A stretch of 64,000 nt of DNA from an uncultured Flavobacteriales bacterium (GTDB taxonomy: Bacteria; Bacteroidota; Bacteroidia; Flavobacteriales_G; Salibacteraceae). Location of the stretch: the NCBI GenBank assembly GCA_905479105.1, contig CAJQLE010000004.1, forward strand, positions 558,001 to 622,000, written 5' to 3'. Under the pieces are notes generated by a model that worked only from the letters and a program-made list of their open reading frames with translations, was not told where the DNA came from and searched no databases. Shown in pieces: positions 56,677 to 61,203 of the stretch; positions within the stretch are counted from its first letter, which is position 1, and every line of letters begins with the position of its first letter. A program made the translations under genes and the position numbers.

Positions 56677-56928
56677 TTATCTTCTTCTATTTTCTTCTGC
56701 TTTCTTAACTACTATCTCGCGTCCTTTCAATGAACTTCCGTCCAATTGATTGATTGCGTTCATAGCGTCTTCTTCGCTTTCCATTTCTACGAAACCGAAT
56801 CCTTTAGAACGACCTGTATCGCGATCAGTTATTACTACTGCTGACATTACAGCGCCATGCTCTTCGAATACTGTTTGGAGGTTTTCACTTGTTACTCCGT
56901 AATCCAGTTTTGCTACAAAAATCTTCAT
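56677..56928 (-). CDS. RRM-type RNA-binding protein
   Basis: The 83-residue protein is a single RNA recognition motif. RNP2 is IFVAKL at residues 3-8, RNP1 KGFGFVEM at 42-49, and there is a basic tail KKAEENRRR. Small glycine-rich or plain RRM proteins in Bacteroidota resemble cyanobacterial Rbp proteins and plant cold-shock RNPs. They bind mRNA and are often cold-induced. It lies 95 bases downstream of the sigma factor gene on the same strand, with a terminator after it. Specific targets unknown. Confidence 0.95.
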   Translation of the reverse strand: MKIFVAKLDYGVTSENLQTVFEEHGAVMSAVVITDRDTGRSKGFGFVEMESEEDAMNAINQLDGSSLKGREIVVKKAEENRRR

Positions 56929-57023: not shown

Positions 57024-57875
57024 TTATAAATAGGCCTTTAACTCGTTACCAAGTGTCTTTGCCATTCTTTTTAGTGCTTGTTTTTTAATTTGTCTAACGC
57101 GTTCTTTACTTAAGTCAAGTTTAAGTGCAATGGCTGTCAAAGATAATTCTTCAGCGCCTATTCCAAAATTAAGATTAAGTACCTCACGCTCGGTAGGATT
57201 TAAGTTCACCATTGAACGTTGTAATTCAATATTCAATGACCCTTTCATCAGCGCTCTATCTGTTTCTACTTCTCCTCCTGATAAAGTGTCTGCAATACAG
57301 AAATCATCTGTATCCCACAGTGGAACATCAATTGACACTCCTTTTTGAGCGCTTTCGATAGAAGAGGATATGCTCTCTTCAGAGAAGTCGAGCAATTCAG
57401 CGAGTTCGTTTGCTGTCGGTTCCCGCTCAAATGCCTGCTCCAAATTAACACTGGCTTGTTTTATCTTCCTAATGTTATTGGTCTGACTTAACGGCAAACG
57501 AACAGTTCTTGAATGCTGCGCAATAGCAGACATAATCGATTGTCTGATCCACCACACCGCATATGATATAAACTTAAAGCCTCGTGTTTCATCGAATTTC
57601 TCTGCGGCCTTAATCAAACCTACATTTCCTTCGCTGATCATATCAATTAAAGGCATGCCTTGTCCTTGATACTGTTTTGCAACTGAAATCACGAATCGAA
57701 GATTAGCTCTAACCATTCGGTCAAGAGCCAAAGAATCACCTTCTCTAATGCGCTTAGTTAGCTCCACTTCCTCTTCTTGAGTGATCATACCTTCACGACT
57801 TACTTCGTTCAGGTATTTATCAAGCGTCAGATTGTTTCTGTCGGTGAAAGTGGCTGCTATTTTTAATTGACGCAT
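57024..57875 (-). CDS. rpoD: Primary sigma factor RpoD/SigA (short Bacteroidota type)
   Basis: The 283-residue sigma-70 has region 1.2 (TLDKYLNEVSREGMITQEEE), then region 2 with the -10 recognition helix KFISYAVWWIRQSIMSAIAQ. Region 3 is QTNNIRKIKQASVNLEQAFE. Region 4 ends in a helix-turn-helix (LSLTAIALKLDLSKERVRQIKKQ). The acidic region 1.1 of proteobacterial RpoD is missing, as is usual in Bacteroidota. It reads the TTTG/TAnnTTTG promoters seen in this window. It lies 30 bases downstream of a DEAD-box helicase gene and 95 upstream of an RRM gene on one strand, an unusual RNA-linked neighbourhood. Confidence 0.96.
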   Translation of the reverse strand: MRQLKIAATFTDRNNLTLDKYLNEVSREGMITQEEEVELTKRIREGDSLALDRMVRANLRFVISVAKQYQGQGMPLIDMISEGNVGLIKAAEKFDETRGFKFISYAVWWIRQSIMSAIAQHSRTVRLPLSQTNNIRKIKQASVNLEQAFEREPTANELAELLDFSEESISSSIESAQKGVSIDVPLWDTDDFCIADTLSGGEVETDRALMKGSLNIELQRSMVNLNPTEREVLNLNFGIGAEELSLTAIALKLDLSKERVRQIKKQALKRMAKTLGNELKAYL

Positions 57876-57905: not shown

Positions 57906-59135
57906 TTACGAAACGAATGTTAAAGCTTTACCTGCTTTTCCTGCGCGACCTGTTCTTCCAATTCTGTGGATGTAACTGTCAAAAGTTTGTGGCACTTGAT
58001 AATTGATCACATGCGTCACATCAGATACATCAATTCCTCTTGCCGCAACGTCAGTCGCAACGAGAACTTTAATGCGTCCTTGCTTGAAAGCGTTCAATGC
58101 TGTTTGTCTCGCATTTTGACTTTTATTGCCATGAATGTCGTCAGAATCAAACCCAGCTTTATTCAATTGAATGCAAAGTTTTTTAACTTGATGCTTTGTT
58201 TCTTCAAAAACAAGCACCTTCTGATATTCTTCATTAGCGATAATTCCACATAGGACATCGAACTTATTTTCGCCTGTGCCGATTCTCACGATATCTTGTT
58301 CGATATGATCACCTGTACTTTCTCCTTGACTAACTTTCACTGTCGCTGCATTGGTTAAAATACCACCGATCAATGATTCTTGAGTCTTATCTAAGGTAGC
58401 AGAGAAGAGTAGGGTGTGCTCACGATTATGCATTGAGCTAATAAGCTTCTTTACATCATGTACAAAACCCATATCAAGCATTCTGTCAAATTCATCTAAC
58501 ACAAGCGTGTGAAATGACTTCAAATCTAATGCTCTTCTATTTGCAAGGTCAAGCAAGCGGCCAGGAGTTCCGATCACTACATGACTCTTTTTTCTAAGAT
58601 TATCTAGATCTCTATTGATGTTAGTTCCACCAATATGACATGAACTGTAAAGACCAAGACCATTTGTCATGCTCTTAAATTCATCTTCTACTTGAGTAGC
58701 CAACTCTCTTGTCGGCACCATAATCAATGCATAGTTCTTTTGAGGAGATCTAAGCAATTGGTCAATTATTGGAATAAGGAAGGCTCCAGTTTTACCGGTT
58801 CCGGTTTGAGCGATACCTAAAAGGTCTCTTCCTTCAAGAAGAGTTTCTAATGTTTTATCCTGAATTTCAGTTGGACGCTCAAAGCCTTTAGCTTGAAGAC
58901 ACGCTCTTAATTTTTCATTGACAGGAAGGTCAGCGATAAGTCTGTCGGATTTGTAGTCGACTACTTCTTGACTTACAGCTTTCTTAATAAGTAATGATGG
59001 GTTTAATGTAGAAGGTTTTCTACCTCCTCGACTTTGTGGTCTTCGACCAGCGTCACGATTACCACCAGAAGGTCTTCCTCCCGAAGGTGTAGCGCTTGTT
59101 TTTTTGTTATTGTTTTTAAACGATGTATGATACAT
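57906..59135 (-). CDS. DEAD-box RNA helicase with basic glycine-rich N-terminus
   Basis: The 409-residue protein has an R/G/S/P-rich lead of about 45 residues (GGRPSGGNRDAGRRPQSRGG), likely an RNA-binding tail. The two-lobe core follows: motif Q PTEIQ, motif I AQTGTGKTGAF, motif II VLDEFDRMLD (DEFD in place of DEAD), motif III SAT and motif VI HRIGRTGRAG. The protein ends soon after motif VI (GKALTFVS), so it lacks a long C-terminal extension. It probably remodels RNA in ribosome assembly or mRNA decay. It has a long leader (see 59136-59482) and ends 30 bases before rpoD, with which it may be co-transcribed. Confidence 0.93.
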   Translation of the reverse strand: MYHTSFKNNNKKTSATPSGGRPSGGNRDAGRRPQSRGGRKPSTLNPSLLIKKAVSQEVVDYKSDRLIADLPVNEKLRACLQAKGFERPTEIQDKTLETLLEGRDLLGIAQTGTGKTGAFLIPIIDQLLRSPQKNYALIMVPTRELATQVEDEFKSMTNGLGLYSSCHIGGTNINRDLDNLRKKSHVVIGTPGRLLDLANRRALDLKSFHTLVLDEFDRMLDMGFVHDVKKLISSMHNREHTLLFSATLDKTQESLIGGILTNAATVKVSQGESTGDHIEQDIVRIGTGENKFDVLCGIIANEEYQKVLVFEETKHQVKKLCIQLNKAGFDSDDIHGNKSQNARQTALNAFKQGRIKVLVATDVAARGIDVSDVTHVINYQVPQTFDSYIHRIGRTGRAGKAGKALTFVS

Positions 59136-59482
59136 TTACTATAGATACTTTGCGGAATGTTATCCGCGTTTTTTTACTCATCAACTCACGCGCTGAATTG
59201 AATCTTAATATTTAATTTGGATTGTTTTATGAAGCCTTTGTCTTCCGCCTCATGGGTGTGCTCCTATAAATTCTTTAACTGCGCTGGGCTAGAGAACAAC
59301 TCATAAATCCTCAATTTGCGATGCGAAACATTTTAAATGCATCTATTGAGAATGAGCGAAAAAATCACTTTCGCTGTACTTAGCCGAGTCAGAAAGTAAA
59401 GAGAGGGTTTCTTGAGATGCCGGATGGCCTTGAGGAAAAACTGTCTTGACAGAAAGTCTGCTAAGAATATGGCACAAAGGTA
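59136..59482 (-). promoter_or_regulatory. Promoter and long structured leader of the DEAD-box helicase
   Basis: CAAAGGTA at 59475-59482 reads TACCTTTG on the minus strand, an exact promoter match, which implies a leader of about 330 bases. Within it, CTGTCAAGACAG followed by TTTTT (minus strand, at 59452-59436) looks like a weak attenuator. Hairpin GCGGA/TCCGC (59151-59166) lies 16 bases before the start codon and could hide the initiation region. The rest of 59483-59606 has no gene that I can support. Long leaders are a known feature of cold-shock RNA helicase mRNAs in other phyla. Function here is inferred. Confidence 0.45.
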
Positions 59483-59606
59483 AAGGAATAAATGCACCAA
59501 TTACATACGCAGCAACTAATAACGCTTATTGTGAGAATTCAAACCCGCTTTTAGTCTACCTTACATCGGTTTTCAGAAACCCTCAATGCACGTTGCCTTG
59601 TGAAAT

Positions 59607-59834
59607 ATGTACCCAGTAATGAATTACTCCAAGAAAAGTGAACCTGCAGATATCGGATCGTTTTATACTCAAATCGGAAGATTGAAAAGACTTTATACTT
59701 CATTGACCAATGATGATTTGAATTATGAAGAGAGACGTAAAGGTGAGTTGATACAGAATTTGGCTATAAAGTTGAGTGTTTCAGAGAAAGAAATTAAGGG
59801 AGTAATGGATAAAAGCATCCTAACATTAGGATAA
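59607..59834 (+). CDS. Small hypothetical protein
   Basis: The 75-residue soluble protein starts at 59607; a second Met at 59619 is an alternative. The sequence is charged and helical: FYTQIGRLKRLYTSLTNDDL, then NYEERRKGELIQNLAIKLSV. I recognise no family and see no membrane segment. It is 115 bases upstream of the second DEAD-box helicase on the same strand and might be co-expressed with it. Confidence 0.6.
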   Translation: MYPVMNYSKKSEPADIGSFYTQIGRLKRLYTSLTNDDLNYEERRKGELIQNLAIKLSVSEKEIKGVMDKSILTLG

Positions 59835-59949
59835 TGGTGAGGATTGTCTACAGACGATTCAATATTATTGTTTCTGCATCGAATGTTTTGTGCGTCTTCA
59901 GCCGATCAAGTGGAGCTTTATAACTAATCTTGCGGAGCATTAGTTGATT

Positions 59950-61203
59950 ATGAAGTTTGAACAATACCGCATAGCTGAAGGAATTAAGACGAGTATAGCC
60001 AAGCTTGGTTATAAAAAACCCACTGACATTCAGTATAAATCCATCCCACCAATTCTAAAAGGTGAGGATGTTCTTGCAATTGCTCAAACCGGTACAGGAA
60101 AGACCGCGGCATTTGTCATACCTATTTTACATCTATTACAAGAACGCAAAATTGAGCGAAGAGCTGATGGTGTAAAGTGCTTGGTAATGACGCCTACGCA
60201 TGAATTAGCACTTCAAGTAAACAGTGTTTTTCAAGAATTAGGAAAACATACTCGCATTACTTCCTATTGCATACACGGTGGAGTGGAGCAAGCACCTCAA
60301 ATTGAGAAGCTCAACGAAGGTGTTGACGTATTGGTTGTGACTCCAGGTAGAATGTTTGACTTGGTCAGTCAAGGAGAACTGCGATTAGGGCGGGTGGAAA
60401 TTCTAGTACTCGATGAAGCTGATCACATGCTTGATCTAGGTTTCATTAAGGATATCCGTGACGTAATGAGACACATTCCTGAGCGCAGACAAACCTTGTT
60501 TTTCTCAGCAACCATAAACGAAGAGATCAAGGATTTAGCCTATTCTTTGGTGCGTAATGCGATACGCATACAGATATCTCCGAAAGATCCTGTTTCCAAA
60601 AACATAGAGCATTCGGTTGCATTTATAGAAATGGATGATAAACGATTCTTTCTTGAAGGTTTTATCAATAATCACCTTGAAAGCAAGATGCTGGTTTTTG
60701 TTCGTACAAAGGTCAGGGCAGAGCGAGTCAAAAAAGCCATGGAACGCGTAGGTTTAATTACAGATACTATTCACAGCGACCGAGAGCATTCTGATAGAGA
60801 GAAGATAATGAAGGATTTCCGCTCAGGAGACTTGAAAGTTTTAATAGCCACAGATGTTAGTGCTAGAGGAATTGATATTCCAAATGTGGAATATGTCATT
60901 AATTATGATTTACCTGAAACCGCAGAGCAATATGTGCATAGGGTAGGGAGAACGGGTAGAGGAACACAAAAAGGCCAGGCTTATTCGTTCTCGAGCATTG
61001 AAGAAAAAGACCTTCTTAAGCAGATAGAGGAAAACTTGGGAAAACCGATTAGTAGACTGATCGTAACTAAGGATGAATATCAACTTACTGTTGATAATAG
61101 CAAAGAGAACCCTCATGATTGGCAAGCCCTAATTGATGATGCAGAGGAGTTTGAGGTCAAGAAAAGAAAGGCCAAGGCCAAGAAAAAGGCCAAAAAGAAG
61201 TAG
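59950..61203 (+). CDS. DEAD-box RNA helicase (RhlE-like)
   Basis: The product has 417 residues from the ATG at 59950. A TTG two codons earlier is less likely. Motif Q is KPTDIQYKSIP, motif I AQTGTGKTAAF, motif II VLDEADHMLD, motif III FSATI and motif VI HRVGRTGRG. The tail (about 380-417) is rich in lysine and alanine (KKRKAKAKKKAKKK), typical of RhlE-like enzymes that work on ribosomal RNA. It is divergent from the other helicase and differs from it by true DEAD residues and a C-terminal instead of N-terminal basic tail. Confidence 0.93.
   Translation: MKFEQYRIAEGIKTSIAKLGYKKPTDIQYKSIPPILKGEDVLAIAQTGTGKTAAFVIPILHLLQERKIERRADGVKCLVMTPTHELALQVNSVFQELGKHTRITSYCIHGGVEQAPQIEKLNEGVDVLVVTPGRMFDLVSQGELRLGRVEILVLDEADHMLDLGFIKDIRDVMRHIPERRQTLFFSATINEEIKDLAYSLVRNAIRIQISPKDPVSKNIEHSVAFIEMDDKRFFLEGFINNHLESKMLVFVRTKVRAERVKKAMERVGLITDTIHSDREHSDREKIMKDFRSGDLKVLIATDVSARGIDIPNVEYVINYDLPETAEQYVHRVGRTGRGTQKGQAYSFSSIEEKDLLKQIEENLGKPISRLIVTKDEYQLTVDNSKENPHDWQALIDDAEEFEVKKRKAKAKKKAKKK

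Follow-up and report, generated by a model that had tools for sequence, protein, structure and literature searches.

To our knowledge, the control of RNA helicase levels in bacteria has been studied in few models. Long structured leaders are characteristic of the cspA-type cold-shock mRNAs. In E. coli, RNase E exerts feedback in cis through the leader of its own gene, as stated in PMC10989929, and the helicase CrhR of Synechocystis is under temperature-linked control, with self-control at both the transcriptional and the post-transcriptional level (PMC3485376). In F. psychrophilum, which belongs to the same phylum as the bacterium considered here, 64 structured 5' regions are cis-acting RNA candidates, some of them without an Rfam match (PMC9723704, in part); the word 'helicase' is absent from the main text of that paper and from the main texts of PMC11697453 and PMC7366714, and in the part of PMC8632094 covered, the one RNA helicase named is hflX in Bacillales. 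No description of the present leader was found in titles and abstract openings among the literature matches listed.

The locus lies in a 64,000-nucleotide stretch of DNA (the window), part of the 2.79 Mb genome of an uncultured Flavobacteriales bacterium. Comparison of orthologous sequences supports well that a DEAD-box helicase gene is preceded there by a long, structured and conserved leader (Table 1). An earlier note on this DNA had proposed such a leader, and the proposal is borne out by a conserved box far upstream and by a conserved three-helix domain, P1-P2-P3. The note had named neither this 5' domain nor the two hairpins with GCGC loops described below.

Table 1. Genes, promoter box and RNA elements of the helicase locus (positions in the window)
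Feature	Position	Strand	Basis or remark
-7 promoter box TACCTTTG, Bacteroidota sigma-A type	59475..59482	-	TAnnTTTG consensus
Conserved 5' domain (model R1), 89 nt, three stacked helices P1-P2-P3	59378..59466	-	R1 81.7 bits, E 1.2e-17, window sequence itself included in the model
P1 5' arm CTTAGC	59460..59465	-	partner 59384-59379 GCTAAG
P1 3' arm GCTAAG	59379..59384	-	partner CTTAGC 59460..59465
P2 5' arm GTCAAGACAG	59441..59450	-	partner 59405-59396
P2 3' arm CTCTCTTTAC	59396..59405	-	partner 59441..59450
P3 hairpin TTTC...GAAA, inner GCC/GGC	59408..59438	-	pair counts and window fold
P4 hairpin AGCGAAA...TTTCGCT, directly behind P1	59355..59375	-	analogous hairpin in short leaders
Middle hairpin CTCAAT...ATTGAG	59310..59350	-	fold; kept in L003 and L004 (by eye)
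Hairpin A, loop with GCGC (59284-59281)	59270..59297	-	
Hairpin B, loop GCGCG (GCGC 59193-59190)	59181..59201	-	stem covaries among relatives
P5, pre-start hairpin GCGGATAACATTCCGC, ends 16 nt before ATG	59152..59167	-	GCGGA/TCCGC stem; z -0.86
DEAD-box RNA helicase, 409 aa, core domains only	57906..59135	-	PF00270 and PF00271
Sigma-70 family factor	57024..57875	-	begins 30 nt 3' of the helicase gene
RRM protein	56677..56928	-	NCBIfam NF058537 Rbp_regulator, above cut-off; 3' of helicase and sigma factor

The helicase locus and its promoter

The closest named relatives of the window's helicase come from Flavobacteriales and Salibacteraceae MAGs. A ResIII match overlaps the PF00270 and PF00271 matches, and the protein falls below the cut-off of all 25 NCBIfam families listed (the best 25 of 56). 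The sigma-70 family factor encoded next to it is probably on the same transcript. The earlier note had made this sigma link part of the system, a view that comparison does not support: by tblastn, the window's sigma factor lies directly 3' of the helicase in only 5 of the 20 named-record loci with the 5' domain, and the other 15 have no adjoining sigma factor within the DNA examined. In the 80 loci from named records it is found directly behind the helicase in L032, L033, L034, L042 and L045, and farther off in L086 and L088. The sigma factor is outside the conserved unit of helicase and leader, and its linkage is local. A second, RhlE-like helicase gene (59944-61203, +) is divergent from the leader-bearing one, and this divergent upstream rhlE is more widely shared than the sigma factor (L032-L034, L044, L048, L049, L052, L054 and L056). 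A 75-aa ORF (59607-59834, +) has no Pfam or NCBIfam match but, given its tblastn relatives in L033 (73%) and L040 (44%), probably encodes a genuine small protein. Downstream of the RRM gene there is a terminator-like site of 13 pairs (56637-56607).

The box TACCTTTG conforms to TAnnTTTG, the Bacteroidota -7 consensus given in a passage of PMC7366714. It is the sole TAnnTTTG within 600 nt upstream of the helicase, at a distance of 347 nt from the ATG at 59135, and it closes the interval marked in the earlier note; the same sequence is present five times across both strands of the window. The promoter had been described earlier as perfect and 340 bases upstream; 'perfect' applies to the -7 box alone, and as regards a -33 element (TTTG) the nearest TTG (59500-59498) is spaced 15 nt from the box. 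Should transcription start 5-8 nt behind the box, the leader would measure about 332-335 nt, in agreement with the roughly 330 bases predicted in the earlier note. This is long, since the median length of a 5' UTR is 24 nt for F. psychrophilum and 32 nt for B. thetaiotaomicron (PMC9723704, in part); long 5' UTRs are not rare, however, as 13.5% of B. thetaiotaomicron mRNAs have one of more than 100 nt (PMC7366714, in part).

Orthologs were taken from 60 genomes (23 loci, L002-L024, E 2e-109 or better) and from named genome records (80 loci). Removal of the 16 loci common to both sets left 87 distinct upstream regions, of which 84 were used and three were too short. TAYCTTTG occurs 130-480 nt before the gene in 35 of the 84 regions, against 1.3 expected from Markov-resampled sequences (maximum 4 in 200 runs), the relatives behind this count not being independent of one another. 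Control from a distant promoter is not universal, because 49 of the 84 regions have no such box in this range; by eye, another coding sequence ends near the helicase in several of them. Such a coding sequence, which we take to resemble a fatty-acid desaturase, ends just before the helicase in L021, L022, L023, L063, L067, L070, L071, L072 and L087, leaving scant room for a long leader. Two more distant orthologs, L020 and L024, have in common a different upstream sequence around CTTGGCTAGTCAGGCA (by eye), which is maybe another leader type. An upstream peptide starting at 59253-59251 was considered and rejected: by eye, its ATG is ACG in L003 and missing in L004.

The P1-P2-P3 domain

A domain of 74-93 nt made of P1, P2 and P3 is common to 21 loci (alignment A1), from records titled Flavobacteriales, Bacteroidales, Cyclobacteriaceae or unplaced Bacteroidetes MAGs. 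In every one of the 21 members P1 begins 7-12 nt downstream of the box, which places the domain right at the 5' terminus of the predicted transcript. Next to the core of P1 comes a non-canonical pair, A.G in the window and C.A elsewhere, and then GA/TC. P2 has the consensus GU.AAGG.AG with CU.UCUU.AC and shows compensatory changes, from G-C and U-A to A-U and A-U, in 8 of the 21 sequences, while P3 reads UUCCC/GGGA or similar across loci. In the 21 sequences, 91.8% of the 417 cells of the three helices are paired, against at most 54.4% in slid controls, and both sides are altered in 22 cells, compared with 9.8 for shuffles, of which not one in 500 gets that high. The same sequences show no excess over shuffles in the number of pairs with a double change (5, reached by 83 of 500) or of further pair types (15, reached by 326 of 500). 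RNAalifold recovered P1 and P2 unaided, and the window's 89-nt domain alone folds into the same three helices.

The folding energy of this 89-nt domain is ordinary (z -1.01; 29 of 200 shuffles as good), and the whole window leader is only slightly better folded than shuffles (z -1.81; 3 of 100). With both values near those of shuffles, the case rests on comparison and not on energy. The short leader of L043, folded whole, forms P1-P2-P3, P4 and P5 at z -3.71 (0 of 200 shuffles). In L005, L014, L006 and L007, identity to the window is 48-66% in the domain versus 18-56% in the rest of the leader; in the close relatives L003 and L004, the segment spanning P4 to hairpin A equals or surpasses the domain in conservation (92-94% versus 78-89%).

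P1 was followed further in alignment A4, which joins 18 of the 21 A1 rows (without L008, L048 and L050) to eight more distant leaders. Its six core pairs hold in 155 of 156 cells, with C-G replaced by U-A in two rows, a figure that favours P1 in that the added rows were picked for visible P1 arms and L074, L077 and other leaders without clear arms were left out. Covariation of P1 is weak in A4 (2 double-changed cells, matched by 43 of 500 shuffles), because the helix is so conserved. A single-leader test of P1 was significant in none of 28 leaders (smallest p 0.099); the recurring TTAGC/GCTAA arms are visible by comparison only.

Two other readings bear on this part of the leader. The earlier note had pointed to an attenuator-like hairpin with a T run, and CTGTCAAGACAG followed by five T is indeed present at 59452-59436. 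As a transcription attenuator, however, it is most improbable: it is absent from the terminator scan, stem and T run are not conserved, and the same bases form P2. Alternatively, a terminal P1-P2-P3 stem might merely protect the mRNA from decay, as its constant place at the end of the predicted transcript would suit. Such a stabiliser would have no need of conserved unpaired bases, yet 20 of the 98 columns of A1 are invariant, some of them outside the helices. We consider protection of the 5' end an improbable main role for a cis-acting leader here.

Downstream hairpins and folding of the whole leader

Behind the 5' domain, a hairpin analogous to P4 covaries among ten short leaders. Hairpins A and B, with their GCGC loops, are an addition of the window's lineage. 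Within the window's family, 16 leaders contain 19 copies of WGCGCA where 3.5 would be expected (maximum 10 in 500 runs), and 12 of the 16 contain at least two GCGC (null 3.7, largest 9), the exceptions being L006 with none and L008, L016 and L017 with one each. Most GCGC sit at about -95 to -149 and -42 to -64; L014, L015 and L016 have others elsewhere. When 12 of the 16 leaders were folded, 17 of their 23 GCGC sites were placed in a hairpin loop (12 of 12 nearer and 5 of 11 farther sites), versus 14 of 95 GCGC sites elsewhere in these loci. The loop stays constant while the stems differ, for instance CAATTCA/TGAGTTG in L002, CAGTTCA/TGAACTG in L003 and TTTCCA/TGGAAA in L005. As GCGC is self-complementary, the two loops could pair with each other; they could also make a double protein site.

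The GCGGA/TCCGC hairpin just before the start codon was read correctly in the earlier note, and GCGAA/TTCGC in its position in L003 and L004 is a compensatory change. In a hand-chosen set of 40 promoter-defined leaders (the start of L007 and L008 being uncertain), the segment from -55 to -7 beats shuffles (z below -1.5) in 18, versus 4 of 50 control window ORFs, with a mean z of -1.34 versus -0.36. Whether or not this fold is significant, its last paired base falls 9-17 nt ahead of the ATG in 32 of the 40. A predicted pre-start hairpin with changing sequence is thus recurrent in many orthologs.

In equilibrium folds of full leaders, P1 is lost in 10 of the 21 sequences, the window included; for L006, L035 and L036 an extension of 30 nt is enough. 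This loss says little, because shuffled downstream sequence also abolishes P1, in 17-22 of 25 runs for nine of the ten leaders (3 of 25 for L014); a two-state switch was rejected on these grounds. Mimicry of rRNA was also rejected: leader and domain were compared with both strands of the genome's own LSU and SSU rRNA genes, and sense-strand scores were equalled by 11 to 64 of 100 shuffles, no more than chance would give. The lowest of the eight comparisons, in which primary sequence alone was compared, was 5 of 100 for the leader against antisense LSU, and a 16-base exact match from the whole rRNA loci lies behind the LSU gene, outside it.

A long structured leader on a helicase gene also calls to mind a cold-responsive element of the cspA type, whose fold would change with temperature so that more helicase is made in the cold. 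The temperature-linked control of CrhR (PMC3485376, in part) lends this some weight, and in four leaders computed between 5 and 37 C the probability of P1 depends on temperature in two, L043 and L039. The two shifts are opposite in direction, however, the openness of the start site rises smoothly in all four leaders, and no match to an E. coli-type cold box was found inside 59136-59482 at up to 3 mismatches. No consistent switch was computed in the four leaders, and an RNA thermometer was set aside. Cold sensing is in our view an unlikely main function of a cis-acting leader at this gene.

Distribution, proposed function and comparison with known systems

Rfam returned no family above threshold for the whole window except a tRNA elsewhere; around the leader (58900-59700) it gave three hits with E 2.9 to 8.5, all under the gathering threshold. 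Model R1 has one real match in the window (Table 1), the next best scoring 10.7 bits. Among 41 genomes, the window's own included, 8 have a strong match, one each and always just upstream of this helicase, and four further matches are weak (E 0.16 to 0.99). The helicase occurs in 9 of the 13 genomes of the window's genus, and 8 of those 9 have the domain (G001 is without it). Of the 20 genomes behind named loci, 12 match R1, with 13 strong hits, all at known helicase loci; one weak hit (25.4 bits) was also seen among the 20, and the other eight genomes, all with divergent leaders, gave no match. Two of the 13 strong hits are from G459, where two helicase contigs (L048 and L050) have near-identical leaders, reflecting either a duplication or a strain mixture.

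These strong hits are the sequences from which R1 was built; two matches are independent of the model, L065 (E 6e-5) and a weak one, L019 (E 0.13). Filtering in the genome searches loses weak matches, and the whole-genome search of L065's genome missed L065. Under stricter filters, which make absence weak evidence, R1 found only the window's genome among 395 genomes of the phylum, and gave four matches and no new member among 394 genomes of the class: the window's own and three whose coordinates coincide with those of G005, G007 and G009. The confinement of strong matches to this helicase fits self-control better than a regulon. It also weighs against a small-molecule riboswitch, which the compact conserved fold and the conserved internal-loop bases could suggest: the one target gene of the strong matches is a helicase with no metabolic link, and we deem a riboswitch very unlikely. 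Riboswitch, attenuator or any other such device, taken together, have a slender chance of being what a cis-acting leader does here.

The element is very probably a cis-acting regulatory leader of some kind, and within that reading feedback by the helicase or its partners is the leading, if tentative, candidate. In the scheme that we propose, the helicase mRNA would start with a structured leader acting in cis for post-transcriptional control of its own gene, and the 5' domain would be recognised by a protein, for which the helicase itself, or a ribonuclease or RNA-binding protein that cooperates with it, is most likely. Binding or unwinding at this domain would set the stability or the translation of the mRNA and so feed back on helicase supply. 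A binding site is the simplest reading, since the domain is at the predicted 5' end, is tied to one gene and contains conserved unpaired bases. As a whole, a structured cis-acting leader whose 5' domain is a protein site for feedback on helicase supply is the best explanation that we can offer, and it may prove right or wrong about equally well. More speculatively, and rather doubtfully, the leader might define a novel Bacteroidota RNA family through which the helicase gauges its own supply by recognising or unwinding its own P1-P2-P3, relayed in one family through paired GCGC-loop hairpins near the start codon.

The RNA domain that emerges from the comparison is small and defined, shows compensatory changes, starts clearly and has a single target gene. 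It could enter RNA catalogues as a new family, and feedback or cold control of a helicase becomes directly testable in Bacteroidota.

Like the rne 5' UTR (rne5 in Rfam), the leader is a structured one on an RNA-processing enzyme's own gene, and filtered searches found strong copies nowhere else in the genome. It differs in having no Rfam match, in its enzyme and in its phylum, and feedback through it is a proposal. With crhR of Synechocystis it shares an RNA helicase gene, in another phylum, the comparison being one at the level of the gene. It is long and structured, as cspA-type leaders are, but unlike them it has no cold box, Rfam match or predicted switch. We call this leader a new RNA element of a known kind, the cis-acting leader.
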